DNA of 61,740 bases from Muribaculaceae bacterium Isolate-013 (NCI) (GTDB taxonomy: Bacteria > Bacteroidota > Bacteroidia > Bacteroidales > Muribaculaceae), in contig SCEJ01000014.1 of NCBI GenBank assembly GCA_004102785.1, positions 1 to 61,740 of the forward strand, given 5' to 3'. Below are positions 35,161-54,831 of this stretch, piece after piece (positions within the stretch are counted from its first letter, which is position 1; every line of letters begins with the position of its first letter). A program made the translations under genes and the position numbers. The notes under the pieces are model-generated. The model searched no databases. It worked only from the letters and a program-made list of their open reading frames with translations, and had not been told where the DNA came from.

Positions 35161-38100
35161 ATGGCAGACACGACACAACAGTTTATTGATAACCTTATAA
35201 CGGTTATCTGGAACGCCGAGGACCCCGAAAGCGTTACAAACGAGATGGTCGCCCGTGTGTTCGATTTTCTCAATAAGGGATATAAAGACCTTTTGACGAA
35301 TAACTCGGCGGTAGCAACCGAGAAAGCCGAACGACAGGCAGCCGACGCGGCTCTGCAACGCACTATCGACACGCTTAAGCTCGCTCTCCAGACGGTGACG
35401 CGAAAAGCTTCAGACGCGCAGACGGCCGCAGCCACTAACCGAACGGCAATTAACAACCTTCTCGGCAAGAACGCATCGACGGCAATCGAGAATTTTAACG
35501 AAATTATCACCTTCCTGAATGGCATAAAGGATTCGGACAGCCTTGTGGCGTTGCTCTCGGCTATTGACGAGCGTATCACCGAAAACGCCAAGAAAATACG
35601 CGAACAAGGCTATTCGATTAGTGAACTCCAATATAAAACCGAACTCCTCGAAGCCGGTTTCAAGGTTGAAGATAACGGCTACAATCTGAACGCGCTCACC
35701 GAAGCGGGATTCTATTTTCTGGAAGGCCCGACCGATGAAATTCTTATTGTTTACCGTTATGCCGGTCCGAACGCCGTAGGAAAACCAACAACGTACCACT
35801 TTGTTCAATATCTGTTTACCGCCGGAGGCTTGAAATTCCGTAACGGTAGAGCCGCAGGCCTGACAGCGGCGGCAGAGTGGGAGGATTGGCAGGGTGTAGG
35901 CCAAAAGGGCGCGGGTAATCTTATTAACGTGACGGAACTCGTTCCGCCCGAAAACGGATTCTATGACCTTCAGGCCGCTATCGAGGCAGTTCCGGCCACT
36001 CACCGCGCTCTCGGTCGCTGGATAACCTACCGCCTCGGCACAGGCGACTGGGAAACGAAGCAGTTCAAAGGCTCGACGCTCACCCAGTGGGAAAAGGCGG
36101 AAAGCTGGGAGGACACCGGCGGAAAGGGTACAATTACCGGGATTAAACTCAACAACATCCCCGTAAATCCAGACGCTGAAGGTATCGTAAATATCACCGT
36201 TGACGAGGTGGAGGTGGACGAAACTCTAAACGACAAGTCAACCAACCCGGTACAAAACAACGTAGTAACGCAAGCAATTACCGACCTTCAGGGTAAAACA
36301 GTCGCCGACCTTGACGCTACGATGAACGACGAGGGAACGGAGATTCACCTCGCAATCATCAACGACCAGCGTCAAGAGATTGCCGGGTGTGATATTCCCG
36401 TAAGTACAGGCGGAAGCGGTGAAACCGGGGCTACCGCTAAAATCATACTTTCCGCCTCGGTTGATAACGATACAATCCGCGAGGGTAGCCCCGTGAAACT
36501 CCTTTACCGATACGACCACCAGTATCTCGGAGGCGACCAAGGCGGAGAATCGACCGGCCAACGCGCCGACATCGAAATTACTGTCAAGAACGGCGCGGTT
36601 ACTACTTTTACGACCACTCTCAACGACGTGGCCGCAGGTGATTACGAACTCGACATAACAAGTTACGTCCGAAGCGGAACAACCGACATCACGGTTAAAG
36701 CCTCGGTAATCGACCCGGAAACAGGAGCCACGCGCACCCGTCAGGCTACCGCCCGCGTCAAGGCTATGACGCTGACCCTTTCGAGTGCCTACTCGTTGGC
36801 GAACTCTATCGCCGGAGGCGGTTACGGCCCATACGATACCGTTGCGATTCCTTTCACTGTGTCGGGTTCCGGCCGCAAGACCATAACCCTATATCTCGAC
36901 GGAGAGGCATACGACACGAAGGAGGTAACGAAATCCGGCAAAACGAACGGCAGCTTTACCGTTCCGTTGTCGGGGCTTACTGTCGGACGGCACAACGTTC
37001 AGATGGTCGCCGAACTCGAAGCCTCGGACACTCTTACTCTCCGTTCGGAATCTATTTTTATCGACCTTCTGAAGAAACCGGCCACCGGTTACGCTCCGGC
37101 TCCGTTTATCGGTACGATGATTATCTTCCCCGACGGGCGGATTTTCGAGAATAACGATTACCTTACTCCAACGCTGGAAATCGGTCAGTTTGAACGCCTC
37201 GATTTTGATTTTGTGGTGTTCGACCCCGATACTACTCCGGCGAGCATGGACGTATATCACGACGGAGTGGTTACGCAGTCTATAACAGCACCGCGCACCG
37301 TTCAGCGGTACACTAACCGTTTCACCGCTCCCGGAACGGAGGCGATGAAATTCAAAACAGGCGAAACCGATTACCTCTTTAATATCGAGGTTGTAGAATC
37401 CGACATTGATTTAATAGAGGTTACGGATTCCCTTCGTGTAAGGTTGTCCGCAGCCGGACGCAGTAACGCTGAGGGGAATCCGGGCGTTTGGGAATTTGAA
37501 GGTATAACGACCGATTTCCACGGTTTCGACTGGAGCAACAACGGATGGACAGGCGACGCGCTTTTACTTACAAACGGTGCAAGTATCACAATTAACGATA
37601 CCCCGTTTGCAAAAGACGCGACAGCGACAGGCTTCACCGTGGAGGCGGAACTGATGTGTTCCAACGTGTCAGACCGTAACGGCGTTGTTATGTCGTGTTT
37701 CGCCGACGGCGTGGGTTTTGAAATGACTACCGAACAGGCTCGTATGGTTGTTTCAGGCGGTCAGGAACTTGAAACGAAATTCGCCCCGGATATTCCGATT
37801 AAAATAGCGTTCGTGGTTGAGAGCAAAAACGAAAACCGCCTTTTACATCTGTATGTTAACGGTATTCGCGACCGCTCACTCCAGTACCAGGCCGCCGCCT
37901 CGCTCATGCAGATAAACCCGGCTAAAATTACCGTAAGTTCTGACGCGGCAGACGTGGAACTCCGTAACGTGCGCATATACGACCGCGCCCTCTCTGATGA
38001 TGAAATGTTGTCTAACTTTATGGTTGACCGCTCGACGGCTGACGAAATGGTTATACTGTTCCAGAAAAACGACATTCTCAACGACGAGGACGCGGTGGAC

Positions 38101-41100
38101 ATCGACAAACTCCGCGCACAGGGTAAAGGCTGTATGCGCATTGTCGGCGATGTTGACCTTGTTAACCAGACGAATAACAAGAAATTCGAGGTTACGGTTG
38201 ATATATACTTTTATTCGCCCTACGGCAAGGAATACGATTTCGTTGCCCGTAATGTAGGTTTGCGAATACAGGGTACCAGTTCGACGACATACCCGCGTAA
38301 AAACTACCGTATCTATTTACTCCGAGAGCAATACGGTTGCACTCTGGAGGTTAACGGAGTTCCGGTTCCGGATATGACTTACAGTTTCAAGCCGGGGGCG
38401 CGTCCTGTATCAATCTTCTGTCTGAAGGCGGATTTTTCGGATTCGTCGAGTACGCACAACACCGGCGGCGTTCGTATAGTTAACGATATTTTCCGCCGCT
38501 GTGGCTGGCTCACACCCCCGCAAGCTGCCTATAAAGGTGACTACGATGTGCGCGTGGGCGTTGACGGTTTCCCGATAAACCTTTTCTACGACAACAACGG
38601 CGAGGGAGTGGCGAAATTCCTCGGTAAATACAATTTCAACAACGAGAAATCGGAATCGCACCAAGTTTACGGGTTCGAGGGTATCGAAGGTTTCAACGAT
38701 GAAGCAGCCCTCGGCGGTGAACGTAATCGCTGTATCTGTGTCGAGTTCCTGAACAACTCGGCGGCTCTCTGTCTGTTCGGCACGGCTGACATGACGAATT
38801 TCGATGATGAATTGGAGTTCCGATTTAAGGCCGACACCAAATGGGCAGACGCTCACGAGGACGACAAAGCGGCAGTTATACGCTTATGGTCGTGGATTCA
38901 GAGTTGTAAGGGCAATCCGTCGAAATTCCTCCGCGAATATACGCAGTATTTCGCCAATGAAGCCCCGTTCGCATGGTACGCGCTGACGAACTATTTCATG
39001 GCGGTGGATAACCGCGCGAAAAACATGATGTTCGCAACGTGGGATGGCCTTATATGGTACATTTTGCCCTACGATATGGATACGCTTTTCGGCGAACGAA
39101 ACGATTCGTACCTGAAATTCGATTACATGATTGATTTCGATACCGTGGACGAGAGCCAAGGCGCGTACTGTTTCGCCGGACATGATTCGGTACTCTGGGA
39201 ACTCGTTCGCGGTTGCCCCGAAAAACTCGCCGAGGTTGCCCGTTCTATCCGTTCGGTGATGTCAACGGAGTACGTTCTGGACGTGTTCAACAACCAATTT
39301 ATGGGCGAATGGTGCGAACGTATCTACAATAAGGACGGAGAATATAAATATATTCTTCCGCTCATCGAAGAAGGGCGCGACTATCTCTACGCCCTTCAGG
39401 GTTCGCGCTACGCTCATCGTACCTATACAATCGTTAACCGCTTCAACCTTCTGGATTCGGAGTATTGCGCCGGCACATACCGCGACGACGCGTTCCCGGT
39501 GTATTTCTCGTATAACTTTGCGGCGAATCCTCGCAACGTGAAGATAACGGCGGCGGAAAGATTTTGTTTCGGCTATGGCTACACCAACGGCGACCCCACG
39601 GTTTCTGGCCTCCGTGCAAATGGCCAAGGTGACGAAATAACTCTTACCTTCAAACAAAATCTTATCATCAACGACCCGCAGAACATTTACGGGGCCTCTC
39701 GTATTCAGTCGCTCAACCTTACGGACATAAGTCACGCTATTGTCGGAACGCTTAACCTTAACAAGTGTATTCGCCTCCGCAATCTTGACGCTTCTTGCTC
39801 GACTGGGCAGAAGGCTCTCACAGGCCTGATTCTCGAAAATTGCCGGAACCTCCGTTCTCTTGATGTTAACGGACTGAACGGCCTTACCTCTCTGAATCTG
39901 GCCGAAAATCGTAAACTCGAAACTCTCGACGCGGCAGATACGCAGCTTACAAACGTGATATTCGCACAAGGCGGAACGATGTCAACGGCAAAGTTACCGG
40001 CCTCGCTCCAGACGCTCGAATTACGATACCTTCAGAACCTCGCGCCCGACGCGCTGACCTTCTCCGGAACTCCGGCGGTTACTCGCCTTGTCGTTGATAA
40101 CTGTCCGCTGATTGACTGGCAGACCCTTCTCAACCGTTGCCCCTCTACGACCTACCTCCGTGTTACGGGCATAGACGAGAGCGGTCGCGGTGAACTCCTC
40201 CGCAAGTTCCTGACGATGAAGGGTGTCGATGAAAACGGTAACAACGTGACGACTTGCCGCCTCGTAGGTACTTACCAACTCACGAAATACCTCGAAGAAT
40301 CGGAGTTCAACGAGTTACAGGCCCATTTCCCCGAACTGAACATAAAGCAGCCGGAATGGACAGTTATAAAGTACGATGAAACGGTGTCAGATTCAAAAAA
40401 TATCTCAAACCTCGATAACGAAACGGGCTACGACTACGACAACACTTTCAAACCGTCGGCGCACGTCGCCGCTATCATGGCGAAGCGTCACCGCGTAATG
40501 GCTAAATATGTAGCGTCCGGCAAAATGCTTGTTTGTCCTCTCGACGATACCGATAGCCGCCGTTATCACGACGGCACGGAGGCCAATACGCAAGGGTTCA
40601 ACCACCCGACGAAGGCAGACGAAGGCGATTTCATGATGTACGAGCCTGACCGTTGGTGCAAGGGTATCGACGATTTTATTAACCGTTGCCATTACCACTG
40701 CTTCAGCTCTCTGAAGGCTGTAACGCAGCCGGAGGGCCGTAAACTTTACCCGGAAGATATGGAGTTGCACGACCGCGCAGCTTGCCGAGTGGCTACCACT
40801 TACACCACCTTTGACGACTGCCTCGCGGTTTACGATGATTACCGCGTATATGTTGCCCCGGTGAAGGGTTACAAGCAAGCACGATGGCCGGCCGTGAACT
40901 CATCGGTTTACGGCGCGGTGTTCCTCGACGCAGACAACAACGTGGTGGGTCGTGCCGCAGCCAATAGCGGACGAATGACCGAAGGCTCTTACCTGTTTAC
41001 CTCCGTTCCGGCCAACGCTGAAAAAATCGCGTTCACCTGCCACGCCGACGCTCCTTTCTCCTTCGTATGGCTTACCACCTCGCCGGAGATTCACGCTATC

Positions 41101-41919
41101 GAGCCGGACGCATGGCGAACCGGCCAATGGCTTGCCGGTGTTGTGAAAGCCTATTACGGTAATTTGCAGATTCGCAGTATTACGGGCGTTTCGGCGACCG
41201 TCAGCGTATCACAATCGCAGTTCGTTGATTACTGCCGCAGACGTGGTGAGGGATTCACCCCGATAACGTACCCAATGCACCGCGATATTGCTTGTTTGTT
41301 CTGGGCCAACTATGGCGACCGTGACAGTTCAGGCGTGTGCGGATATGGCTCCGGCTCAAATACTACCGTTCAAGGCTTGACCGCCTTCCTCGGCATGAAG
41401 GACACCATAGCGAACCCGGCTAATGCTATCGGTGCGGCCGGAGGCTGGTATTACGACGATACGCAGACGTTACGAAATGCGACATCTATCAACGCCATAG
41501 GTTACGAAAATCTTTGGGGCAATGTCGCAGAATGGATGGGCGGAGTTACCTCCGATTACTACGTTTGGAAATTTACCGAGTACGGAACCGGTGAAGAAAG
41601 AACCGTCAAGAGTGGTACAATCTCCGATTCATGGATTACCGAATTACATAACGGTCGTTTCATGGACGTGGTGCCGGTGTTGCTCAACGCCACAGAAACA
41701 ACCCACTACGGCGACAAATTCTGGTGTTCCAACTCGTCGGCCCGTGTGGTGTACCGCTCCCACTACTACGCCAGCTCGAGCGCCGGTGTTTCGTACACGA
41801 ACGCGTTCAACGATTCATCGAGCACGAGCGCGTGGGGCGGGTCGCGCCTTGCCTTCATCGGAGAAATCGAATATACGTTAAACGTCGCGGCCTTCTTGGA
41901 GGCCGAGGCCATAGCCTAA
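35161..41919 (+). CDS. Giant tail receptor-binding protein, target of the DGR
   Basis: A 2252-residue tail protein. Visible parts: N-terminal coiled coil (about 50-120); beta-rich domains; a LamG/concanavalin-like domain (about 777-950); a CotH-like domain (about 1010-1400) with GTSSTTYPRKNYRIYL and LPYDMDTLFG; leucine-rich repeats (about 1518-1675); and a C-terminal C-type-lectin fold of the formylglycine-enzyme type (about 1950-2245) with GNVAEWMGG near 2120. The variable repeat covers residues 2192-2231, where the diversified residues (from RSHYYASSSAG to SAWGGSRLAF) would form the ligand surface. Adenine-directed changes in the DGR alter only these residues, so the phage can switch receptors. 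Confidence 0.87.
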   Translation: MADTTQQFIDNLITVIWNAEDPESVTNEMVARVFDFLNKGYKDLLTNNSAVATEKAERQAADAALQRTIDTLKLALQTVTRKASDAQTAAATNRTAINNLLGKNASTAIENFNEIITFLNGIKDSDSLVALLSAIDERITENAKKIREQGYSISELQYKTELLEAGFKVEDNGYNLNALTEAGFYFLEGPTDEILIVYRYAGPNAVGKPTTYHFVQYLFTAGGLKFRNGRAAGLTAAAEWEDWQGVGQKGAGNLINVTELVPPENGFYDLQAAIEAVPATHRALGRWITYRLGTGDWETKQFKGSTLTQWEKAESWEDTGGKGTITGIKLNNIPVNPDAEGIVNITVDEVEVDETLNDKSTNPVQNNVVTQAITDLQGKTVADLDATMNDEGTEIHLAIINDQRQEIAGCDIPVSTGGSGETGATAKIILSASVDNDTIREGSPVKLLYRYDHQYLGGDQGGESTGQRADIEITVKNGAVTTFTTTLNDVAAGDYELDITSYVRSGTTDITVKASVIDPETGATRTRQATARVKAMTLTLSSAYSLANSIAGGGYGPYDTVAIPFTVSGSGRKTITLYLDGEAYDTKEVTKSGKTNGSFTVPLSGLTVGRHNVQMVAELEASDTLTLRSESIFIDLLKKPATGYAPAPFIGTMIIFPDGRIFENNDYLTPTLEIGQFERLDFDFVVFDPDTTPASMDVYHDGVVTQSITAPRTVQRYTNRFTAPGTEAMKFKTGETDYLFNIEVVESDIDLIEVTDSLRVRLSAAGRSNAEGNPGVWEFEGITTDFHGFDWSNNGWTGDALLLTNGASITINDTPFAKDATATGFTVEAELMCSNVSDRNGVVMSCFADGVGFEMTTEQARMVVSGGQELETKFAPDIPIKIAFVVESKNENRLLHLYVNGIRDRSLQYQAAASLMQINPAKITVSSDAADVELRNVRIYDRALSDDEMLSNFMVDRSTADEMVILFQKNDILNDEDAVDIDKLRAQGKGCMRIVGDVDLVNQTNNKKFEVTVDIYFYSPYGKEYDFVARNVGLRIQGTSSTTYPRKNYRIYLLREQYGCTLEVNGVPVPDMTYSFKPGARPVSIFCLKADFSDSSSTHNTGGVRIVNDIFRRCGWLTPPQAAYKGDYDVRVGVDGFPINLFYDNNGEGVAKFLGKYNFNNEKSESHQVYGFEGIEGFNDEAALGGERNRCICVEFLNNSAALCLFGTADMTNFDDELEFRFKADTKWADAHEDDKAAVIRLWSWIQSCKGNPSKFLREYTQYFANEAPFAWYALTNYFMAVDNRAKNMMFATWDGLIWYILPYDMDTLFGERNDSYLKFDYMIDFDTVDESQGAYCFAGHDSVLWELVRGCPEKLAEVARSIRSVMSTEYVLDVFNNQFMGEWCERIYNKDGEYKYILPLIEEGRDYLYALQGSRYAHRTYTIVNRFNLLDSEYCAGTYRDDAFPVYFSYNFAANPRNVKITAAERFCFGYGYTNGDPTVSGLRANGQGDEITLTFKQNLIINDPQNIYGASRIQSLNLTDISHAIVGTLNLNKCIRLRNLDASCSTGQKALTGLILENCRNLRSLDVNGLNGLTSLNLAENRKLETLDAADTQLTNVIFAQGGTMSTAKLPASLQTLELRYLQNLAPDALTFSGTPAVTRLVVDNCPLIDWQTLLNRCPSTTYLRVTGIDESGRGELLRKFLTMKGVDENGNNVTTCRLVGTYQLTKYLEESEFNELQAHFPELNIKQPEWTVIKYDETVSDSKNISNLDNETGYDYDNTFKPSAHVAAIMAKRHRVMAKYVASGKMLVCPLDDTDSRRYHDGTEANTQGFNHPTKADEGDFMMYEPDRWCKGIDDFINRCHYHCFSSLKAVTQPEGRKLYPEDMELHDRAACRVATTYTTFDDCLAVYDDYRVYVAPVKGYKQARWPAVNSSVYGAVFLDADNNVVGRAAANSGRMTEGSYLFTSVPANAEKIAFTCHADAPFSFVWLTTSPEIHAIEPDAWRTGQWLAGVVKAYYGNLQIRSITGVSATVSVSQSQFVDYCRRRGEGFTPITYPMHRDIACLFWANYGDRDSSGVCGYGSGSNTTVQGLTAFLGMKDTIANPANAIGAAGGWYYDDTQTLRNATSINAIGYENLWGNVAEWMGGVTSDYYVWKFTEYGTGEERTVKSGTISDSWITELHNGRFMDVVPVLLNATETTHYGDKFWCSNSSARVVYRSHYYASSSAGVSYTNAFNDSSSTSAWGGSRLAFIGEIEYTLNVAAFLEAEAIA
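41734..41852 (+). repeat. DGR variable repeat (VR)
   Basis: 119 bases aligned without gaps to the template repeat at 42014-42132 (offset 280). There are 11 differences, all at template adenines: to C once, T four times, G six times. It encodes residues 2192-2231 of the tail protein. The invariant GC-rich end GGGTCGCGCCTTGC fits the initiation site of mutagenic homing. Confidence 0.95.
41888..41905 (+). other. Hairpin 36 bases after the VR
   Basis: CGGCCT (41888-41893) pairs with AGGCCG (41900-41905) around TCTTGG, inside the last codons of the target gene. In phage BPP-1 a hairpin after the VR is required for efficient homing; this is a candidate equivalent. Confidence 0.4.
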
Positions 41920-42013
41920 CCGAATAAACTTGAACGTATGATGTTAAACGATACACGAGGGCGCAGCCCTCCCACCGCAGAGCAGCCCCCGAAATGGTAG
42001 ATTTCCCCAATCG

Positions 42014-42132
42014 TCGTCGGCCCGTGTGGTGTACCGCTCCAACAACAACGCCAACTCGAACGCCGGTGTTTCGTACACGAACGCGAACAACGATTCATCG
42101 AACACGAACGCGTGGAACGGGTCGCGCCTTGC
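42014..42132 (+). repeat. DGR template repeat (TR)
   Basis: 119 bases with 28 adenines, mainly in AAC codons (TR-coded Asn), 11 of which differ in the VR. AAC is the preferred DGR template codon because changes at its two A's reach many residues without making stops. It lies 94 bases after the target gene's stop and 195 bases before the reverse transcriptase gene. Confidence 0.95.
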
Positions 42133-42327
42133 ACTCAAAGCGTTAATTTGCCAAAATCGAAAATATATAGTTTCTCGTATCGTCAGCGAGAAGCAGGGGA
42201 GAGAGCCACGGCACAGCCGTCCACAGGACGGAACGCCGAAACATCACGCGCAGGGGTGGAGTTTAGTAGGGCCAGCAATGGCAGCCGAATAACTTAGGCC
42301 CCAGAAAATGAAGGCAAAACAAACAAC
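42133..42327 (+). ncRNA. Probable DGR template RNA 3' region
   Basis: 195 bases without a gene between TR and reverse transcriptase. It holds inverted repeats such as CGTCAGCGAG neighbours and GTCCACAGGAC and is the expected place for the structured RNA part that recruits the enzyme for cDNA priming (as in BPP-1). Structure not computed. Confidence 0.5.
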
Positions 42328-43761
42328 ATGAAACGTATAAAGGATTCCGAAATAATTCCGCTGATTGTCGCCCCGTCCAATATCCGGGAATCTATTGCAG
42401 CCGTACTCCGTGGAACTGCCCGAAAGCAGTCTAAACAGGGGCGCGAGATTCTTGCGCATATCGACGGGATAGAGGCATGGCTGGCCGCTGAAATATCGGC
42501 GGGCGTGTTTCGACTTACCTCCTACGGAGAGGAGATAATTACCGAAGGAGGGAAGAAACGGCGGATTCAATTCCTTTACTCGTATTATGAAAAAATAGGT
42601 ATTCATGCAATAATGAATATCGTCGAGGAACTGACGTTCAAAAAGTTGATACGAACCACCGGGGCATCGCTGAAAAACCGTGGTACGCACGACCTTCTGA
42701 AGCTGATACGCCGCGACCTCGAATTATACCCCGATGAAATACAATATGTTTACGAGGACGATATTACGAAATTCTACGAAAGCATATTGCAGGACATCAT
42801 GATGGACACGTTACGCCGCTTATTCAAAGGGCCGATAATCCTTACCCTTCTGGAACGGTTTGTGCGTTTCCTCGTCCGTGGGCTGTCTATTGGGTTACGC
42901 AGCTCCCAACATTTCGGCAACCTCCTTTTATCGGTATGGCTCGACCACCACGTTAAGGACAAACACCGCTTCAAATTTTATTATCGTTATTGTGACGATA
43001 AGAGGGCGTTCGGTTGTGATAAGCCGACACTTTGGAAATTGAGCGGTATCGTTCACGAACAGGTCGAGGGCATAGGGCTGAAGGTGAAAGCGAATGAACG
43101 TATTTACCCGGTTTCACAGGGTATCGACTTTGTCGGATATGACATTTACAAGGATTATACTCGTATTCGTAAGCGCAACAAGAAGAAGGCAGCCCGTCGC
43201 CTCCACAAAATCAAAAGCAAACGCCGACGCGCTGAAATACTCGCGTCGTTTTACTCGCTCTGCAAACACGCAGACGCTAAACATCTTTTTTACAAAATAA
43301 CAGGCTTAAAAATGGCTGATTACTCAAATCTTAAATCGTTGGCCGACCTCGGTATCTCGACATCGCCGGGAGTGCGTCGGAACGGTCAGAAAAATTTTAC
43401 TTGCCGCGAGGTCACTCTTAACGCGCTCGTAGGCTCGACGCTTTGTATTCTGGATTTCCAAACAGGCGTTTCGACAAAGTGGTCGCGTAGAGAACACAAG
43501 GAAGCGGTGGCCAACGGTGACACGGAGGCAAAGGAGAAAACGAAATATCTCGTTTGCGCCCGTCTTATCGTCCCGAACCGGGCGCAGCTTGCGGCCTGTA
43601 ACTTACCCCTGAAGAAGGGCGACGTGGTTAAATTCTTTACCGGCTATCCTGATATGTGCGATATATGCGACGCGCTGAAAGAAAAGGAACTACTGGGCGA
43701 GAATAAGGTGACTATGGCGCGTAACGCACAGGGTAATTTTACCGAATATCTTTTCACTTAA
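42328..43761 (+). CDS. DGR reverse transcriptase with C-terminal extension
   Basis: A 477-residue reverse transcriptase. Motif A DDITKFYES lies at about 144-152. The DGR-type motif IGLRSSQHFGN lies at about 188-198, where the usual group II QG is replaced. The active site is YCDD (221-224), and FVGYD follows near 268. It copies the TR RNA into cDNA with errors at adenines. Residues about 330-477 form an extension not expected in a minimal DGR enzyme (usual length about 300-400); it has beta-rich parts and Lys/Arg patches. Avd, the usual partner, is not seen nearby. Confidence 0.93.
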   Translation: MKRIKDSEIIPLIVAPSNIRESIAAVLRGTARKQSKQGREILAHIDGIEAWLAAEISAGVFRLTSYGEEIITEGGKKRRIQFLYSYYEKIGIHAIMNIVEELTFKKLIRTTGASLKNRGTHDLLKLIRRDLELYPDEIQYVYEDDITKFYESILQDIMMDTLRRLFKGPIILTLLERFVRFLVRGLSIGLRSSQHFGNLLLSVWLDHHVKDKHRFKFYYRYCDDKRAFGCDKPTLWKLSGIVHEQVEGIGLKVKANERIYPVSQGIDFVGYDIYKDYTRIRKRNKKKAARRLHKIKSKRRRAEILASFYSLCKHADAKHLFYKITGLKMADYSNLKSLADLGISTSPGVRRNGQKNFTCREVTLNALVGSTLCILDFQTGVSTKWSRREHKEAVANGDTEAKEKTKYLVCARLIVPNRAQLAACNLPLKKGDVVKFFTGYPDMCDICDALKEKELLGENKVTMARNAQGNFTEYLFT

Positions 43762-43773
43762 CAATATATCGAC

Positions 43774-44250
43774 ATGAAAACGAGAGAAATATCATGTTCC
43801 GAGGTGCTTGCGCCTATCGAGTGCATAAACCCACGCCGCGACCGCTGGGCGGTGCGCTGGAATCACCACCGCGACGAGGAGCGCGGATGGCTGGCCGTTG
43901 AAATGATTACCGACGGCCGTCCGACTATTGACGAGATACGCGACGCAGTGGCGGAGTATTTCGACGCACAGACCCAGGACCGAATCGCTAATACGTTCTT
44001 TTGGAATGGACGGAAGGTAAGGCTGACAGACGCGGCACAGCGTAATTTTCTGTTTGCGGTGTACTCGCTCGATAAGACCGGCGAAATCGACCGCGCCCCG
44101 TTCATCGGACTGCTGGAGGCTGATACGGACGCAGCCGCAGCCGACGAACTGGGCGATATGGTCGCAGCCATGTGGACGCACATCAAAGAGTGCCGAGCCG
44201 CAGGAATCGAAGCGAAAAACGCCGTCGATTACTCACAATACGAGTTATAA
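43774..44250 (+). CDS. Possible tail fibre assembly protein (DUF4376-like), after the RT
   Basis: A 158-residue acidic protein, last gene of the late operon. FFWNGRKVRLTDAAQRNF resembles the C-terminal DUF4376 domain of phage tail-fibre-assembly proteins. It is not like Avd, which is a small basic four-helix bundle. A chaperone for the giant fibre is one reading. It overlaps the integrase gene tail-to-tail by 6 bases. Confidence 0.5.
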   Translation: MKTREISCSEVLAPIECINPRRDRWAVRWNHHRDEERGWLAVEMITDGRPTIDEIRDAVAEYFDAQTQDRIANTFFWNGRKVRLTDAAQRNFLFAVYSLDKTGEIDRAPFIGLLEADTDAAAADELGDMVAAMWTHIKECRAAGIEAKNAVDYSQYEL

Positions 44251-45399
44251 CATATCGTCGAAGGCAGACACCCCGGCGACGCGGTTTTCTTTCATTATGT
44301 GGGCGTATATCATGGTGGTTGTTACCGAGGTATGCCCCAAGAGTTTTGAAAGAGTGCCAAGGTCGCCGGAGTTCTTTTTGTAGTAAAGGGTGGCGAAGGT
44401 GTGCCGGGCAGCTTTCGCGCTGACCGCTTTTTCGATACCTTCACGTTTACAGATTCTTTTTATTATTCTGTTGAACGCCTGGTCCGTCGGCAATTTCCTG
44501 AACAGATTGCCACGATACCGTCCGTCGCGGTAGTATTCGGCCAATTCAGCCGCCGGACGCGATAGCGGCATATTTACGCGCGTGCGTGTCTTGATTCTCT
44601 GGTAATGGATTTCGCCGCCGCTTATCTGCTCTAAATGCAACGCTCTGGCGTCGGATATGTGCATGGCCGTGAATGTCATAAACAGGAAGAAGCGAAGCAC
44701 GTCCTGTTCTCCTTCGTCAAGAATGGCGGAGCGATAGAGGCTTGTCAGTTTGTTTAATTCCTGTTCGGTAAGAAATATAACAGCAGGGTCGGCGGCCGGA
44801 ACCCGATACACCTCGAACGGGTTAACCTTCACTTTCCCGGCTCTCATAGCCGCATAATAGTGCATACGGATAACGCACATATTTTTGCGTATTGTTCCGG
44901 CGTTGTTATTGTGCTTATCTCGGAGGTGGGCGGCATATACGCGCAGCCATTCGGGCGTTATCTCGGCTATCTGGAGCCGTGGGTTATAGTGCTGGAGTTT
45001 CGTTAACGCCGCTTTGTGGTGCCGGATTGTTTCGGGCTGCATGGCCGTGCGCAGCTCGTCGAGGTGCCGGAAGGCGTATTCAAGAAAATTCATCGTTTCA
45101 CCCGGACGACGGTAGAGCGCGAGAAAACTGTCTTTCGTGAGTGTTTCGCCCGTGAGCCTCGCCCGGACGAGTATGTCCGAGATTTTCGCTTTCGTGTTGG
45201 AAATTATAAGGTTCTTATCTTTTACCTCCTGACCGCGCCCCTTGATTCTCTCCGTTACCGGGTCCCATTCCGCACCCGTTACCGCTATATCCAGAGGGAG
45301 GCGGATTTTTATACGCTCGATGTTTAACACCGCATACAGAGCGGCGCGGCCGTCCGCTCTTTCGCTCTCATTTCGCCGCTTGATTGTTACTTTCGCCAT
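44245..45399 (-). CDS. int: Prophage tyrosine integrase
   Basis: A 384-residue tyrosine recombinase with an N-terminal arm-binding domain, core-binding SAM-like domain (about 105-205), and catalytic domain. The nucleophile is in TTTMIYAHI near the C-terminus; ARHTFAT supplies the second Arg. The first catalytic Arg position reads TAMHISDAR (His in the place of Arg) and the usual His before ARHTFAT reads Lys (SAKAARHTFAT). Such substitutions occur in Bacteroidetes recombinases, and adjacent Arg/His residues may compensate. It starts 160 bases from the attachment core. Confidence 0.85.
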   Translation of the reverse strand: MAKVTIKRRNESERADGRAALYAVLNIERIKIRLPLDIAVTGAEWDPVTERIKGRGQEVKDKNLIISNTKAKISDILVRARLTGETLTKDSFLALYRRPGETMNFLEYAFRHLDELRTAMQPETIRHHKAALTKLQHYNPRLQIAEITPEWLRVYAAHLRDKHNNNAGTIRKNMCVIRMHYYAAMRAGKVKVNPFEVYRVPAADPAVIFLTEQELNKLTSLYRSAILDEGEQDVLRFFLFMTFTAMHISDARALHLEQISGGEIHYQRIKTRTRVNMPLSRPAAELAEYYRDGRYRGNLFRKLPTDQAFNRIIKRICKREGIEKAVSAKAARHTFATLYYKKNSGDLGTLSKLLGHTSVTTTMIYAHIMKENRVAGVSAFDDML

Positions 45400-45749: not shown

Positions 45750-45817
45750 CAGAACCAAAGTGGCTGATTGTGAATAACTGTGAACGCCACCACTCAGAAA
45801 TTTATAACATCGAAGAT

Positions 45818-47281
45818 ATGACAAAAACACCCTCTCCGAAAAAATTGACCCCGTTTCATGTCCGAACCAAGGATTTGAAGAAGGATACCGCGACTCTCTT
45901 TATCCGTATCCATACCCGCAAGGTTGATGTGCTGATTTCGACCATGCTTCAGGTTGAGGTTGCCGACTGGCAGAAGGCTACGACATCACCCCGCGCATGG
46001 CTGGCGCATCAGAAGAAGAATTATCAGCTTCATGCCAAGCTCACGCAGATTGAGGGCATAGTCAAGGCCCATCTCGCAAAGGTGAACTTTGACCGCGAGG
46101 CTCTCGACATGGATGTGCGCTATATCTCAGAGCCGGAGAAAGTGGACGCTGAACGTCGGGCGATGGAGGAAGCCGCCGAGGCTGAGCGTAAGGCTATCGC
46201 CAAACGTGAGGCGGCGAAAGAAAAAGCCCGCAAGAAAGCCGAGGAAAAGAAACGTATCGAGGATGAGAAGAACCGCCTTATCTGGCCGTTCCTCGTTCAG
46301 TTTGTCGATGACATCAAGAGCGGGGCGCGCAAGATTGGCAGTGACGACTATGCACCCGGCACATGCAAGGCATGGAAAAGTTTTATTGGTGTCTATGAAG
46401 GCTTCGACACATTGCACAAGTTCGGATGGGCAGACATCGACCGTGCGTTTGTGTCACGCTACATCAACTACTTACAGAAGCACGGCTACATGGCGAAGGT
46501 GGTCAACAAGCATCTGACAAACCTGAAGGCTCTTATCAATGCCGCATTCGTTGACGGCGTACATGATAATCAGAGAGCTGCCGCGCTCATTGTCAAGAAG
46601 AAGATTGAAGACCGCGACAAGGCTGTCGAGATTTATCTCACCGAGGAGGAGTTGCAGGCTCTCTATGAAATGCCTCTGACCGGGAAGAAAGAACACATCC
46701 GCGATGTTTTTCTCATTGGCTGCTACACCTGTCAGCGTGTAAGCGATTACAACAACCTCAATGTTGACAATTTTGAGACCACCCGCAAGGGGACGCGCAT
46801 CATCCGTCTTGTGCAGCAGAAGACCAAGACCGAGGTAACAATCCCCATTCTCAACGAGAACCTTATCACCATCTGCGAGAAGTACGGCTACAATATTCCG
46901 AAAGCCAACGAGCAGGTGCTGAACCGCTACATCAAGGATATTCTCAAAGACCTGTCGGAGCAGTTGCCGTCACTGAAAGAGAAAGTGCCGACCAAGCTCA
47001 CCATGAAGCAGAAGGAGGCGTTGAGAAAAGAGAAGAAGGAACCGGAGACCGACCTCAACGGCAACGTGATTGTGCCGCGCTATGAGTGTGTGACAAGCCA
47101 CACCGCCCGACGCACCGGCATCACGAATATGTACCTCAGCCACAGGTACACCATCTTCCAGATGATGCACGTCAGCGGTCATAAGACCCAAAAGACCTTC
47201 ATGGACTACATCAAGCTATCCTCCGAGGAGATAGCCGACGAAATTGCCGCCATGTCCAAGAAAGAGAATGATATGTGGTAA
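45818..47281 (+). CDS. int: Tyrosine integrase of the mobilizable element
   Basis: A 487-residue tyrosine recombinase, start ATG 45818 (a GTG at 45770 is also open). It has an Ala/Lys/Glu-rich coiled coil at about 110-160 between arm-binding and core-binding domains, and a full catalytic set: Arg in CQRVSDY (about 307), Lys in QQKTKTEV, His-x-x-Arg in SHTARRTG (about 429-432), His in SGHKT and Tyr464 in FMDYIKL. It integrates the element at the tRNA-Phe 3' end. Confidence 0.9.
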   Translation: MTKTPSPKKLTPFHVRTKDLKKDTATLFIRIHTRKVDVLISTMLQVEVADWQKATTSPRAWLAHQKKNYQLHAKLTQIEGIVKAHLAKVNFDREALDMDVRYISEPEKVDAERRAMEEAAEAERKAIAKREAAKEKARKKAEEKKRIEDEKNRLIWPFLVQFVDDIKSGARKIGSDDYAPGTCKAWKSFIGVYEGFDTLHKFGWADIDRAFVSRYINYLQKHGYMAKVVNKHLTNLKALINAAFVDGVHDNQRAAALIVKKKIEDRDKAVEIYLTEEELQALYEMPLTGKKEHIRDVFLIGCYTCQRVSDYNNLNVDNFETTRKGTRIIRLVQQKTKTEVTIPILNENLITICEKYGYNIPKANEQVLNRYIKDILKDLSEQLPSLKEKVPTKLTMKQKEALRKEKKEPETDLNGNVIVPRYECVTSHTARRTGITNMYLSHRYTIFQMMHVSGHKTQKTFMDYIKLSSEEIADEIAAMSKKENDMW

Positions 47282-47377
47282 ACCCTTGGCTCAACTCCTC
47301 TCAAGTGGCAAAATAGCCGCTTTCTGGGGTGGTGAGCCTTTAATCCTCTCACTAAAAGCGGATAATTCAGCATAATT

Positions 47378-47391
47378 TTGTATCTTTGCAA
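47378..47391 (+). promoter_or_regulatory. Promoter of the cargo pair
   Basis: TTTTGTATCTTTGC contains TATCTTTG, a clear -7 box about 25 bases before the ATG at 47411. Confidence 0.6.
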
Positions 47392-47410
47392 AAAAATAAT
47401 TGCGCAATAA

Positions 47411-48205
47411 ATGAACAATCTATATACTAAAGATACGCTCAAGCACTATCTCCATAATCCTCTTGGAATATTGGGGATGTTTATTACCCTCTGTTATCTA
47501 ATTGCGGGCATTGTCTTTTCAATAGGATTAGGTCAGCTGCAAGGAGATTCTGAAAGATTGCCATTCATATATTTCATTATAGGTTTCCCCTTAGTTATTT
47601 TGATCGCGTTTTTATTTTTGGTTATATGTCACCACGAAAAGCTTTATAGCCCACAAGATTTTTCAGATGAAGCAAATTTTGTAAAATTAACCGGTAAAGA
47701 GAGCACTGAAAAACTTAGGAAGGAGGCAGTAGAAATAATTTCCCATGGGAACAATGTCCTCAGAGAAACAAAAAATGTTACAGAAAAAGTCCATGCATTG
47801 ATGCCAATAGTAGAAAATGTAGAGAAATTAGCCGTAAAAAAAATAGAGAGTATCTATGGCATTCAATTTCAAAGGGAAGTTCAGTATGTTTTAAACCGCC
47901 ATCGATATATATTTGATGCTTTTGCACAAAAGGATGAGATTTTTTATATTTTTGAATGCAAATATGTAAGAAATGCCATCTCTCGTGAAAGGTTGAGGAG
48001 TGTGTTAGAGCAAATGTTACGATATAAACAGATGTTCAAAGATCAAGGTATTGCAACTAAATTTATTGTTGCATTTGTATTAGATGAATTTACCGAAAAC
48101 CGTCAGCACGAAATTATGGATTTTTATTCATCAGTTGCACCTGAAATGACAGTATATGTATTTGATTTCAACAAATTAAAGGTAGAATTCTCTACAAAAT
48201 CCTGA
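47411..48205 (+). CDS. Membrane-anchored PD-(D/E)XK nuclease-like protein
   Basis: A 264-residue protein with two N-terminal transmembrane helices (about 17-40 and 48-72) and a C-terminal restriction-endonuclease-like domain. D169 and E182-x-K184 (IFECKYV) are the metal-binding set, with a Glu-bearing helix before them. It is much more AT-rich than the integrase gene. It is followed after 2 bases by the AlbA/Schlafen ATPase gene, so the two probably act together. A defence role, with membrane tethering of the nuclease, is plausible. Confidence 0.7.
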   Translation: MNNLYTKDTLKHYLHNPLGILGMFITLCYLIAGIVFSIGLGQLQGDSERLPFIYFIIGFPLVILIAFLFLVICHHEKLYSPQDFSDEANFVKLTGKESTEKLRKEAVEIISHGNNVLRETKNVTEKVHALMPIVENVEKLAVKKIESIYGIQFQREVQYVLNRHRYIFDAFAQKDEIFYIFECKYVRNAISRERLRSVLEQMLRYKQMFKDQGIATKFIVAFVLDEFTENRQHEIMDFYSSVAPEMTVYVFDFNKLKVEFSTKS

Positions 48206-48207
48206 AA

Positions 48208-49890
48208 ATGCCCAGATATACAATAGAACAACTTCAACATATGCGTGAGTCGGAAGACCACGTTGAGTTCAAAAAAGGGGAACACGGAAACGTATCCTAT
48301 AACGGTGCGGGTAAAGACAAACCACAGGAGCGTCGCCGGTGTATCCTCGGATATGTCGCTGCTCTCTGTAACGAGGGTGGCGGTCGTATCGTCATAGGTA
48401 TGCACGATGCCTATCCTCATAAGGTTATCGGCACAAAACAGTGTCTTAACGGTATCGGGCAACTTGAGAGTGACATATATCGGGATATGGGCATACGCCC
48501 CGACATCTACGAATTGTATGAGGACGAGGAAGCAAAATCCGGGCGAGTGCTTGTAATCGAGGTTCCTCCGCATCCGATTGGCAAGGTATTCAAATTCGAG
48601 GACGTAGCACTTATGCGTGTGGGAGAGGAATTGAAGCCAATGGATGACAAGACTTTCATCTCCATCATTCAGGAGCAGGAGCCTGATTTCTCGGAGCACA
48701 TCTGCGAAGGTATCACCATTGATGACCTGGACAAAGAGGCAATCAAAGTGATGAAGGAAAGATACGCTGAAAAGCAGAAGAATCCAACATTTACATCATT
48801 GTCCGATGCACAGGCATTAAGCGACCTTAGGCTGATAATTGGAGATAAGGTTACGAATGCCGCGCTACTGCTGGTCGGCAAGGAAGAAGTGATTGAGCGT
48901 TTCTATCCTCAGGCAAAAGTAATGCTTGAATATCGCAATACAGAAAGCCAGATACACTTTGACAACAGAAAATCTTTCGGTCAGCCGTTCTTCCTTCTGA
49001 TTGACGAGCTTTGGGAGGAAATAAATCGACGTAACGGTTCCGTGCCGGTAAGAAAAGGTCCGTACATATTCGACATTCCTTTCTTCAACGAGGACGTTAT
49101 ACGAGAGATTGTTAATAACGCTTTTTCTCATAGAGATTATAGATTTGGCAGTGAGATTGTAATCAAGCAATATCCTCTAAAATTCACAATCATCAATGGT
49201 GGCGGTTTTCCTCATGGCGTGTCAGTCGATAATCTTCTGACTACTCCGAGTATGCCACGAAACAGGCTCATCGCTGATGTTCTGTCCAAGACCGGTATCG
49301 TAGAACGCTCCGGCCAAGGAGTTGACAAGATATTTCTATACACGCTTTCAGAAGGGAAGCCTGCTCCGGATTACTCAAAGACTGACGAGTTCAATGTTAC
49401 AGCGACATTATCAGCCACTGTGAAGGATACCGGATTCGCCCTTTATGTGCAGGATATTCAGGATGGACTGCCGGATGACAAGAAACTTACGGTGTTTGAG
49501 GTGCTTGCTCTATGTGAAATACGGGATGGAGCAAAACGACCATCTGACAAGGAGATAGCCTTAAAGCTTGAAAAACTTGGATTCATAGAGAAGCATGGCA
49601 AGACCAACGCACAATACTACATTCTACCCCGCAAATATTATGAACTGAGTGGTGATTTGGCAGCCTATTCGTTAAAGACCGATTGGGACATCAATCAGGT
49701 ATGGGCTGTACTTCATCCTTTTATGGTCAAATATGGCAAGGCAAAGCGGGCTGATATAAATACCCTTATTGGAACCCATTTGTCGGAAAAGCAACTTCGT
49801 AATTTTATTGAGGAGTTGAAACAGCAGGGAAAATTGAGAGCAGAAGGAGGAAGAGGGTATGTAGTGTATTATCTTGGAGAGAACGCTTAA
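48208..49890 (+). CDS. AlbA_2/Schlafen-type protein with C-terminal HATPase domain
   Basis: A 560-residue protein. The N-terminal AlbA_2/Schlafen-AAA domain has EDHVEFKKGEHG near 16-27 and CNEGGGRIVIGM near 54-65. The RecG-like HATPase_c_4 domain follows (REIVNNAFSHRDY near 298-310, and ERSGQGVDKI). C-terminal winged-helix segments come last. Such proteins are regulators or effectors on mobile elements, some within defence islands. It starts 2 bases after the membrane nuclease gene, and codon use also differs from that gene, so the pair may have mixed origin. Confidence 0.75.
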   Translation: MPRYTIEQLQHMRESEDHVEFKKGEHGNVSYNGAGKDKPQERRRCILGYVAALCNEGGGRIVIGMHDAYPHKVIGTKQCLNGIGQLESDIYRDMGIRPDIYELYEDEEAKSGRVLVIEVPPHPIGKVFKFEDVALMRVGEELKPMDDKTFISIIQEQEPDFSEHICEGITIDDLDKEAIKVMKERYAEKQKNPTFTSLSDAQALSDLRLIIGDKVTNAALLLVGKEEVIERFYPQAKVMLEYRNTESQIHFDNRKSFGQPFFLLIDELWEEINRRNGSVPVRKGPYIFDIPFFNEDVIREIVNNAFSHRDYRFGSEIVIKQYPLKFTIINGGGFPHGVSVDNLLTTPSMPRNRLIADVLSKTGIVERSGQGVDKIFLYTLSEGKPAPDYSKTDEFNVTATLSATVKDTGFALYVQDIQDGLPDDKKLTVFEVLALCEIRDGAKRPSDKEIALKLEKLGFIEKHGKTNAQYYILPRKYYELSGDLAAYSLKTDWDINQVWAVLHPFMVKYGKAKRADINTLIGTHLSEKQLRNFIEELKQQGKLRAEGGRGYVVYYLGENA

Positions 49891-50012
49891 AGGGCGAACT
49901 AAAGGGCGAACTTTTACGCCTTATAAGCCATTTCAACTTGAAATCATCCTCTTATCATGTTGATAATTAGAACTAAACATTAACCGTCAAAGGGCGAACT
50001 AAAGGGCAAAAG
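49889..50012 (+). repeat. AAAGGGCGAACT repeats after the cargo pair
   Basis: Exact 12-mers at 49889-49900, 49901-49912 and 49989-50000, with a weaker copy at 50001-50012. The first overlaps the stop codon of the AlbA/Schlafen gene. Possibly a duplicated 3' end of the gene in another frame or a transcription-control repeat. Confidence 0.5.
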
Positions 50013-50101
50013 GATTATAAGCATATTTTAGGAGACAAAGGGTACTCAGAAAGGAAAAGAAGGGAGCCAGAACGCAATAACGGGAACCATGCCCGGAATA
50101 A

Positions 50102-50134
50102 TTTGGAAAGTCTGATAAGGTGGTATTATCTTTG
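50102..50134 (+). promoter_or_regulatory. Promoter in the gene-free block (first)
   Basis: TTTG (50102-50105), 21 bases, TATCTTTG (50127-50134). Confidence 0.65.
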
Positions 50135-50220
50135 CCAGAGAATTGTGAGGCGACCATTGCTATATCGGTTATATATACTGAGATACATGTACAACCTTGT
50201 GCTATATCCGGCGGAAAATA

Positions 50221-50253
50221 TTTGGCGGGATTGAAAATTACACTTTATCTTTG
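50221..50253 (+). promoter_or_regulatory. Promoter in the gene-free block (second)
   Basis: TTTG (50221-50224), 21 bases, TATCTTTG (50246-50253). A consensus promoter with no gene after it for over 1.1 kb, which suggests a transcribed RNA. Confidence 0.7.
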
Positions 50254-51452
50254 CCGCTGTAAGGATGAAAAGAAAGTCCGGAACCAGGAGTAGGGGCTAA
50301 TGCCCGGTCATGCACTACTTTTGGCTATGGATGATTTTCTTTCATCGAATCGTGAACTTTTTTGAACAACGCTTTGTTAGGAAAGTTGCGGTGGCAAATT
50401 TTGCGACCATAGCGGAGCGTCAGATTGCTCTGCCGTGACGGTTGCGCCCTTATCCGCCGCAGACATAACCCACAGCCCAAGAGTGGGCTGACTCTCTATG
50501 AGCCGACCCCGATGGGTCAGACTCCCCACGCACAACACCCGGAAGTGTGTGCCTGAATTTCGCAGCCGGATGCGCAATACCTTGCGAACAAATCGGTGTG
50601 CGGGTACTTGCCCGAACCTTACACCGACATCGGTGCCCATGTTCAGGCATGACACTTGTGGACGCTATCGACACACACCTACATCGTACACACCCGATAG
50701 CGGACAATGTCAACCGCCGACGGGAGATTGTGCAGATTTGGAAGTCTCGTAAAATTTTGTTATCTTTATGTAACGATTGAAGGCAGCGCAAGCCCGAAGC
50801 GACACGTTCAGCTTTATAGACCGGAACAGGAACGATGCTACCCGACGGATGCCATGCCCGATATTGACACTGAAACAATAATAACGAGGTACCTGATCAG
50901 AAGACCGGACTCAGAATCCGGAACCACTATGAAAAGCCTGCTGTTGAATGCGGAACAAACCGCAACGGTTTAACCCGGCAACAACTCGCACTAAGGAAGC
51001 GATGCTCAACGGATTAAATGCGTGGAACAACGGCAGAAGAAGAAAGAACGGCACAGCCATAAACTGTCATAGAGCCTATACGAGCTGAATTTTGCGACAG
51101 CCACAACTGTGCCCGTACAGAATCTGTACGTCAAAAAAATCAATTAAAAAGAAGAAAAACGCGTATGCCTTACCTTATTGCAAAGTAAGACACAACCGCC
51201 CTTGTATCTGCCCTGTATAAGGAACAGATGCCCCTCATGTTGTTGCCTTTCGGCACGGCGTGGGAAAGGGTGAGCTACGCCCTCTGCCGACCCTGACAAG
51301 CCGGCAGCAACAACCGTCGGCTTTAACAATACATAGCCGACAGCCCCTCCTATGTCCTTTCGGGGACACGTCACCGCAGCCTCTTTCATCGCCGGGGCTG
51401 TGGTTGATGTAAGTTACTCGGCGATATAACTCTTCAAATTCATTTTCCTCAG

Positions 51453-51782
51453 ATGAAATTGAATCTTTTTGACCTCCTTCAGGCGTCGGCACTCGACCCT
51501 GACTCTCCAAATATCCTCCTCAACGTCCGCCTCTCTGACCTTCATCAGCTTGTGGTGGACACAATCGAAGCCACCCGCGAGCGTCTGCTCCCCCTCTACA
51601 TGGAGGCGGAGCAGGACAAATCAATCACCAAGAAAGAGGTTGCCGAGCGGCTCGGCGTCTGCGAGACCACGGTCTATAACATGACCAAAGACGGCAGACT
51701 ACACCCATTCAAGGTGAACGGCAGCACCCGCTACAGCCTGCGGGAAGTCAACTCCATTATCAACCCCTCTAACGATGACTGA
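51453..51782 (+). CDS. Excisionase-like HTH protein
   Basis: A 109-residue protein with a C-terminal MerR/excisionase-type HTH (TKKEVAERLGVCETTVYNM, about 60-78, then RYSLREVNSI). Such genes on Bacteroides elements direct excision or regulate the mobilization genes. It overlaps the helicase gene by 8 bases. Confidence 0.75.
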   Translation: MKLNLFDLLQASALDPDSPNILLNVRLSDLHQLVVDTIEATRERLLPLYMEAEQDKSITKKEVAERLGVCETTVYNMTKDGRLHPFKVNGSTRYSLREVNSIINPSNDD

Positions 51783-53004
51783 GCTTATGGAAGACGTAAT
51801 AGTTACACCTCCCGCCGACGACCGCTTCGAGCGCATCGGTACCACTTACTACAAGATTGTCCGCCAGCCCAACGCTGCCGGACAGCTCATCGAGCGCAGC
51901 ATACCGTGGACTATCGAGGCAATCCGTCAGGACTACGGCAAGGACTTCCTTGCCAACTTGCCCAAGTACGACGGCTTCTGCTGTGTTCCCTCGCATCTGG
52001 ACTATAAGCCGGTTGTCGGCAGTTTCAAGAACAAGTATTCGCCGTTGAGCCATATTCCCGCCGATGGAGAATGGCCATGCATCGAATCGCTTGTGCGCCA
52101 TATCTTCGGCGAACAGTACGACCTCGGTCTCGACTACCTGCAAATACTTTACACCATACCGTTGCAGAAACTTCCGATACTGCTGCTGGTGTCGGAGGAA
52201 CGGAACACCGGCAAATCCACCTTCCTCAATTTCCTCAAACTGCTCTTTGAGGCTAATGTCACGTTCAACACCAACGAGAACTTCCGCAGCCAGTTTAACG
52301 ATGATTGGAACGGCAAGCTGGTAATCGTAGTGGACGAGGTGTTGCTCAACAAGCGAGAGGATTCCGAGCGTCTGAAAAACCTCAGCACCACCTACAACTA
52401 CAAGATGGAGGCCAAAGGACGCGACCGCGAGGAGGTGAGTTTCTTCGCCAAGTTCGTACTATGCTCCAACAACGAGTATCTCCCCGTGGTCATCGACCCC
52501 GGCGAGACCCGCTACTGGGTGCGGAAGGTTCCGAGGCTTACCACGGACGATACCACGTTTCTGGAGAAAATCCGCTACGAGATACCGGCATTTCTCCATG
52601 CCCTGACCTATCGGCAGCTGATAACCGCCGAGGAAAGCCGCATGTGGTTCAATCCCGCGCTGCTCGACACCGAGGCATTGCAGAAAATCATCCGCGCCAA
52701 CCGCAACCGTGTGGAGCTGGAGCTTGCCGAGCTGCTGACCGAGATAATGGACTCGCGCAAAATCGACGAGGTGGATTTCTGCTTCAACGACATCCTGAGT
52801 CTATTCGGCTACCGTCAAGTCAAGGCTGACCGTAGCCAGCTCCGGAAGGTGGTGCAGGACTGCTGGAAGCTCAGACCTGCCTCCAACTCGTTCTGCTACA
52901 CGACCTACACCGTCGGGATGTTCCTCAACGAAGAAACATACGTTGAGACCCGCCGTTGCGGACGATACTACACCGTCACCCGTCAGATGTTGGAAAATTT
53001 ATAA
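51775..53004 (+). CDS. DUF5906-type SF3 helicase, element replication protein
   Basis: A 409-residue helicase: Walker A ERNTGKSTF near 143-151, Walker B VIVVDEVLL near 182-190, motif C VLCSNNEY near 227-234, Arg-finger-like region ETRYWVRKV. No primase domain. Known relatives replicate mobilizable elements. It is preceded by the excisionase-like gene and followed by a GATGAA repeat array that may be its origin. Confidence 0.8.
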   Translation: MTELMEDVIVTPPADDRFERIGTTYYKIVRQPNAAGQLIERSIPWTIEAIRQDYGKDFLANLPKYDGFCCVPSHLDYKPVVGSFKNKYSPLSHIPADGEWPCIESLVRHIFGEQYDLGLDYLQILYTIPLQKLPILLLVSEERNTGKSTFLNFLKLLFEANVTFNTNENFRSQFNDDWNGKLVIVVDEVLLNKREDSERLKNLSTTYNYKMEAKGRDREEVSFFAKFVLCSNNEYLPVVIDPGETRYWVRKVPRLTTDDTTFLEKIRYEIPAFLHALTYRQLITAEESRMWFNPALLDTEALQKIIRANRNRVELELAELLTEIMDSRKIDEVDFCFNDILSLFGYRQVKADRSQLRKVVQDCWKLRPASNSFCYTTYTVGMFLNEETYVETRRCGRYYTVTRQMLENL

Positions 53005-54825: not shown

Positions 54826-54831
54826 TTTCCT

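Follow-up and report, generated by a model that had tools for sequence, protein, structure and literature searches.

A diversity-generating retroelement of a Muribaculaceae prophage with a predicted OB-fold domain, a candidate accessory factor, fused to its reverse transcriptase

Which protein could assist the reverse transcriptase (RT) of a diversity-generating retroelement (DGR) that has no gene at the position of the accessory gene avd? Avd is essential in phage BPP-1, and accessory homologues are missing from about a quarter of DGRs, as stated in passages of PMC7290462 (the latter citing others). The question is raised by a prophage DGR in a 61,740-nucleotide stretch of DNA, referred to here as the window, from Muribaculaceae bacterium Isolate-013 (NCI) (GenBank assembly GCA_004102785.1, contig SCEJ01000014.1), a host that probably comes from the mouse gut. 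A variable repeat (VR) lies at the 3' end of a giant tail protein gene and a template repeat (TR) adjoins the RT gene (Table 1), which is the layout of a DGR and agrees with an earlier sequence-only reading of the window, including its claim that the DGR acts on the C-terminus of the tail protein. Since only 94 nt separate the tail gene from TR, there is no gene where BPP-1 carries avd, and the RT itself ends in a domain with a predicted oligonucleotide/oligosaccharide-binding (OB) fold. Our reading, to which we give a probability of roughly 0.7, is that the window carries a hankyphage-type prophage DGR from a lineage whose accessory factor is an OB-fold protein, in this case joined to the RT.

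Table 1. Features of the DGR cassette and its surroundings, with related RTs elsewhere in the host genome (G000)
Feature	Position	Strand	Remarks
Giant tail protein gene	35161..41919	+	2252 aa; VR at C-terminus; open reading frame (ORF), Pfam, PHROG
VR	41734-41852	+	119 bp; codons 2192-2231
Candidate initiation of mutagenic homing site (IMH; TR copy, IMH*)	41838..41852	+	GC-rich 3' end common to VR and TR, divergence beyond; named by analogy with BPP-1
Candidate target hairpin	41888..41905	+	6-bp inverted repeat, 6-nt loop, 35 nt 3' of VR
TR	42014-42132	+	119 bp
RT-3 RNA (RF03068)	42166..42302	+	Rfam, 61.3 bits (gathering 40.5), E 2.5e-13, model 1-148/148
DGR RT	42328..43761	+	ORF, 477 aa; C-terminal predicted OB fold
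Predicted OB-fold domain of RT	43405..43758	+	about residues 360-477
DUF4376-like gene, putative Tfa-type tail-fibre chaperone	43774..44250	+	158 aa, 12 nt 3' of RT
Tyrosine integrase	44245..45399	-	Pfam
Further host-genome DGR RT	C319:6539-7921	-	RT search
Further host-genome DGR RT	C319:77586-78887	-	RT search
Further host-genome DGR RT	C214:11834-13189	+	RT search

VR and TR form a direct repeat, with the two copies 280 bp apart. They differ at 11 positions, and all 11 are adenines of TR, which has 28 of them, exactly as the sequence-only reading had counted; six are changed to G, four to T, and one to C. The chance that 11 random sites would all hit a TR adenine is 2e-8. Nine codons are altered in VR, where that reading had spoken of at least seven, and each of these is AAC in TR; the corresponding residues, 2201-2226, lie close to the end of the tail protein. 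AAC makes up 11 of the 39 TR codons, and none of the 17 adenine-containing TR codons can become a stop codon, whichever base replaces the adenine. An 88-aa frame with a GTG start overlaps TR, which we take as chance.

An RT-based scan gave nine loci from viral contigs and three from genome contigs. The window TR was found unchanged in four of these (L006, L007, L008, and L009) and with one base changed in a fifth (L014). One VR is common to L006, L007, and L008, whereas L009 and L014 each have a different one, and the genome contig L021 (Duncaniella muris DSM 103720) has the same VR and TR as L009. Compared to its own TR, the VR showed 16 differences in L006-L008, 9 in L009, and 12 in L014, all at adenines, so that over the four distinct VRs (window, L006, L009, and L014) 48 of 48 differences were at A. 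Together, these VRs have 23 of the 28 adenine sites hit in at least one VR (25 changes to G, 18 to T, and 5 to C), with no stop codon, and the 3 kb upstream differ at 14 to 73 sites between the window and these contigs. A comparison of sibling VRs had been suggested in the sequence-only reading, with a fixed VR or changes at bases other than A as evidence against it; the VR was not fixed among the contigs whose TR was identical or had one base changed, and there were no non-A changes. The A-only differences and the varied VRs indicate that the system has been used, as claimed there, and we regard it as virtually certain that this region is a DGR with a history of activity.

More distant relatives were less clean, with non-A differences in 2 of 14 cases in L010, 3 of 13 in both L011 and L012, and 7 of 12 in L013. 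In L010-L012, two of the deviating sites are the bases at which the comparison starts, and at four of those in L013 the VR keeps an A of the window TR that L013's own TR has lost. We also ran a base-blind repeat search on 91 loci with a fused-type RT, not all on different contigs (the window, 10 loci known from before, and 80 from a search). A repeat turned up on the upstream side of the RT in 53, and the other 38 had none within the stretch searched. In the 48 distinct pairs, 507 of 558 differences were at a TR adenine, while A accounts for 1261 of the 5437 TR bases. The TR of L013 (the same as L048 and L040) has only 16 adenines, and that of L053 has 17. Compared to the window TR, the L048/L013 TR has lost 12 of 28 adenines with changes at 5 of the 91 other sites (Fisher 9e-6), whereas the spacer shows no such bias (15/64 and 23/122). 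Apparently, either mutagenic homing or conversion from VR has altered the template itself. Such erosion was not significant in L045 (4/28 adenines, 10/91 others) or L051 (1/28, 0/91). L050 has a single repeat between tail gene and RT (3680-3810), and its near-twin L053 has both VR and TR; recombination between the repeats, or a collapse in the assembly, may account for this.

The window RT contains IGLRSSQ (residue 188), YCDD (residue 221), in line with the YxDD motif that marks DGR RTs, and a stretch in which 15 of 25 residues are lysine or arginine. The (I/V/L)GxxxSQ motif and a basic patch after the core are described as marks of DGR RTs in passages of PMC3521204. PADLOC profiles of defence RTs (DRT) also matched the protein (best RT_UG17, 2e-15), but the TR/VR pair with A-only change identifies it as the RT of a DGR, and the defence assignment was therefore dropped. 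The solved structure nearest to it by sequence was 8ub7 (4e-15, residues 52-321), which we take to be the BPP-1 RT complex.

The last ~120 residues of the RT are predicted to form an OB fold. When the AlphaFold2 (AF2) model of this domain was compared to solved structures, the single-stranded DNA (ssDNA)-binding cores of T4 and RB69 gp32 were the nearest and occupied the first four VIA rows, with 12-16% identity and no sequence-profile link. In a tree of 94 RTs, the fused RTs formed one clade (100/100), with 42 fused rows on one side of a single branch; the BPP-1, HRDC-type, and crAss rows in this tree were long and their placement was unsure. The fused-type domain occurred in 31 phage records, of which 30 also had an RT match, and the match in the last lies at a contig edge. 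Three more DGR RTs are present in the host genome of the window, all with the C-terminal domain (L121, L122, L123, and L124). Two have an adjacent TR and VR, with 14 and 15 differences and none off A; in the third, TR adjoins the RT, and the VR lies ~26 kb away on the opposite strand in a 2326-codon frame, with 7 of 8 differences at A. LoVEphage (L125, 3871-5414) has its RT divided among several ORFs, the final one of which holds the OB domain, and the same split was seen in six records. The RT of crAssphage LMMB (L319, 3501-4796), whose DGR is reported to lack avd, is extended at its C-terminus by ~100 aa that look OB-like by eye and gave no profile match.

The same domain was also found as a gene of its own. 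In a family-wide search of 149 genomes, the match of some RTs, the OB-less ones, stopped near profile position 325, and beside four of these (L141, L142, L151, and L154) a ~115-aa ORF lies between the VR gene and the RT. Among 7813 ORFs, these were matched by the fused-domain profile at 3e-14 to 1e-11, and profile-profile alignment of fused and stand-alone OB with hhalign gave 98.6% and 6e-16; the two are homologous. A tblastn search with the stand-alone OB matched 21 of 50,697 phage records (best 2e-8), 19 within an annotated RT and 2 unannotated but matched by the window RT itself. A second, downstream OB type matched 29 phage records (best 1e-15), where the match is to the OB part of hankyphage-type RTs and, in six, to the LoVEphage-type ORF.

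To see how often OB-less RTs have such a gene, we took the best 80 of 551 viral loci with an OB-less RT. Of these, 52 carried an OB gene at E<=1e-3 and 53 at 1e-2, with the OB ORF upstream of the RT in 42 and downstream in 12; where more than 1 kb was available on both sides of the RT (57 loci), 36 carried OB at 1e-2. Divergent downstream ORFs in 22 of the 27 loci without an OB gene looked alike by eye, but gave hhalign values of 0.5, 1.0, and 34.5% and were not counted as OB. The converse scan, with 19 stand-alone OB proteins, used the best 80 of 118 viral relatives. When 295 genomes of the order were searched with OB, six of them contained a total of 8 matches: 5 lay in long frames (464-550 aa) and 3 in short ones (120-150 aa). 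The 80 viral loci and 3 genomic ones make up 83 stand-alone-OB loci, many on contigs that recur from the OB-less RT survey and some near-copies. All 83 had a DGR-type RT (profile of DGR RTs, E<=1e-8). The OB gene was upstream on the plus strand in 78 and upstream with both genes on the minus strand in 2, and the frames overlapped in 3; the script labelled these last pairs 'fused', and an overlap of stop-to-stop frames is a likely cause, given gaps of -410 to -446. Where a repeat was detected (69 loci), the order was VR-OB-TR-RT in 55, and avd of BPP-1, between mtd and TR, occupies the same position as most stand-alone OB genes.

None of the 19 stand-alone OB proteins matched Pfam at 0.01; the family corresponds to phrog_19665 and relatives. 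Passages of PMC10053308 describe a Pfam-based survey of DGR partners and name Avd, HRDC, and MSL as the known ones, and a survey of this kind would have missed the OB protein. In the titles and abstract openings of the open PMC literature, we found no OB-fold DGR partner and no naming of the RT-3 RNA as a DGR RNA, which does not establish their absence from print; the terms 'RT-3 RNA' and RF03068 do occur in PMC7657543. Bacteroides phage Versailles (L321, 4950-5330) has a divergent stand-alone OB protein downstream of its RT (6e-6), and a 158-aa ORF upstream of one OB-less RT (L143:2339-2812, minus strand) looks by eye like an HRDC-type accessory. PF05635 was dropped as an Avd detector because it misses BPP-1 Avd; it matched five places in the genome of the window, none of them on the window contig. 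A tblastn search with BPP-1 Avd itself returned 5 Bordetella and 2 Marinomonas records and is uninformative for Bacteroidota.

Between TR and RT, the window carries an RT-3 RNA. In a comparison of 20 hand-picked loci, RT-3 was present in all 11 OB-fused relatives; of the 7 loci whose RT is OB-less, 4 had RT-17, and cr10_1 had none. BPP-1 has a Phage_DGR RNA between TR and brt, and this common position suggests that the three RNAs are equivalent segments of the template RNA, with RT-3 as its structured 3' part. In BPP-1, the spacer recruits the RT-Avd complex, as stated in passages of PMC12875486.

The window DGR fits the hankyphage type by the clade of its RT, the C-terminal domain, the RT-3 RNA, and a DUF4376-like neighbour. 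Hankyphage p00 (BK010646) shares the RNA as well as the order giant tail gene (with VR)-TR-RT-DUF4376-like ORF, its VR/TR differences are at A, and its RT is 45-48% identical to that of the window (47% over residues 9-384, tblastn) and has the C-terminal domain, although the aligned C-terminal stretch spans 171 residues in the window and 130 in hankyphage. Hankyphage is transposable according to part of PMC12135933, whereas a tyrosine integrase gene adjoins the cassette in the window phage. Since the hankyphage DGR has been described (PMC6199706) and found active in culture (PMC12135933) in the passages concerned, the window DGR as such is not new. Bacteroides phage BT-TP2 (PQ571279) likewise has the order giant ORF-RT-DUF4376-integrase, with an RT that is 44% identical. 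BPP-1 (NC_005357) shares VR in a tail gene, TR, spacer RNA, RT, and adenine mutagenesis, but has avd, a 328-aa RT without OB domain, and Phage_DGR in place of RT-3. The named RT carriers among the relatives were Duncaniella muris, Muribaculaceae bacterium, and 'Bacteroidales bacterium'.

The 158-aa gene that follows the RT is the other candidate for an accessory factor. A similar ORF directly follows the RT in 86 of the 91 fused-type loci, often with a 4-nt overlap, and the remaining 5 have no ORF of at least 80 aa there. The window protein itself matches DUF4376 below the Pfam cut-off (16.8 bits, cut-off 25; E 0.0096), and 45 of 50 of its relatives match this family at 0.01. Its AF2 model has a predicted local distance difference test score (pLDDT) of 95, with a sheet of four N-terminal strands followed by three long helices, which differs from the helical bundle of Avd. 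Comparison with solved structures gave no clear match, and Avd lay outside the match lists, which excludes nothing. DUF4376 is the C-terminal domain of Tfa chaperones, the N-terminal part of which binds the fibre tip (passages of PMC7882524). On the strength of DUF4376, the gene product would be a Tfa-type chaperone acting on the variable tail tip; it is not an evident Avd. Like the genes of TfaMu-type chaperones, the gene lies downstream of the fibre region, but TR and RT part it from the fibre gene; we read this as a DGR cassette inserted between the two. The sequence-only reading had called the DGR complete; the DGR was confirmed, but the avd slot is empty and the small downstream gene is of the DUF4376/Tfa type.

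Could the locus nevertheless be an ordinary hankyphage-type DGR, in which the downstream 158-aa ORF is Avd and the RT extension a passive tail? In the hankyphage papers, Avd is identified with a small ORF close to the RT: the part of PMC6199706 concerned names one with an Avd-like pI and mass, judged by size and charge and without stating which ORF, and a figure legend in PMC12135933 marks an Avd. The downstream ORF is, moreover, as constant a partner of the RT as its presence in most fused-type loci implies. Both its predicted structure and the DUF4376 matches of its relatives argue against this view, and so do the conservation of the OB part and its occurrence elsewhere as a gene in the avd slot, which makes the proposal unlikely. 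We think it improbable, too, that the OB protein is an inhibitor, a host-takeover protein, or a general ssDNA-binding protein of phages that simply accompanies the DGR, although the folds nearest to it are phage replication proteins of that kind, its position relative to the RT varies among relatives, and 28 of the 80 OB-less RT loci have no detectable OB. Against this stand the DGR-type RT at every examined locus found through OB, the fusion to the RT throughout a clade, and the joint presence of fused-type domain and RT match in all but one of the phage records with that domain, the exception being a match at a contig edge. That the repeats are left over from a decayed, disused DGR is very improbable: some relatives do have an adenine-poor TR (L048) or a single repeat (L050), but the window RT is open over its full length, its TR retains 28 adenines, and three different VRs occur among contigs with the same TR. 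We therefore keep to an OB-fold accessory factor fused to the RT; taken by itself, the assignment of the OB domain as accessory factor of the window DGR is reasonably likely.

The template RNA would consist of TR followed by the RT-3 RNA domain. The RT would copy TR and misincorporate opposite adenines, and the cDNA would then replace VR (retrohoming); as many as 17 codons, including 11 AAC, could thereby change at the tip of the giant tail protein. The OB-fold protein, which is predicted to bind nucleic acid and may be needed for retrohoming, would stand in place of Avd, fused to the RT C-terminus here and separate in related DGRs. Judging from its fold, linkage, and fusion, it most likely holds single-stranded cDNA or template RNA in the RT complex. 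The product of the next gene, as a DUF4376-type chaperone, would probably help to fold or cap the variable tail tip.

The tail protein matches PHROG 5302, a tail protein family, at 2e-12 over residues 1998-2233, and has Pfam matches to laminin-G-like (805-948) and CotH-kinase (1228-1317) domains. The sequence-only reading placed the altered codons on a C-type-lectin surface and proposed receptor switching. In sequence searches for such a fold, the window tail C-terminus gave no PDB match; a profile of 25 tail relatives gave 21 PDB matches at E<=1, none of them credible, and one of the 25 relatives matched Pfam FGE-sulfatase. A C-type-lectin fold is stated for hankyphage and other DGR targets in passages of PMC6199706 and PMC8144416, and by analogy the variable domain of the window may have this fold. 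Changes in VR may likewise allow the phage to switch receptors.

Elsewhere in the window, a second integrase, a schlafen/AlbA-type protein, and a MobA-type relaxase lie beside the prophage (45770-56301), perhaps as an adjoining mobilisable element, and genes of the DNA methyltransferase and phosphoadenosine phosphosulfate reductase types precede the structural genes (4538-6879).

All named carriers of OB-type DGRs among those found are Bacteroidota or their phages. On balance, we lean towards the view that a sizeable group of DGRs has, in place of Avd, HRDC, or MSL, an OB-fold accessory protein that had not been named before (phrog_19665 and relatives, without a Pfam model), encoded by a separate gene mostly in the avd slot or fused to the RT in the hankyphage clade. 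With RT-3 RNA where it is fused and RT-17 RNA where it is separate, this protein would mark out a second type of DGR ribonucleoprotein. If so, the RT-3 and RT-17 motifs would gain a role as template-RNA spacers, and the likely identity of the small gene beside hankyphage-type RTs would be corrected. A conserved OB-fold partner, fused or separate, would be a concrete candidate for DGRs without an accessory homologue, and may explain DGRs that have been reported without an accessory gene.

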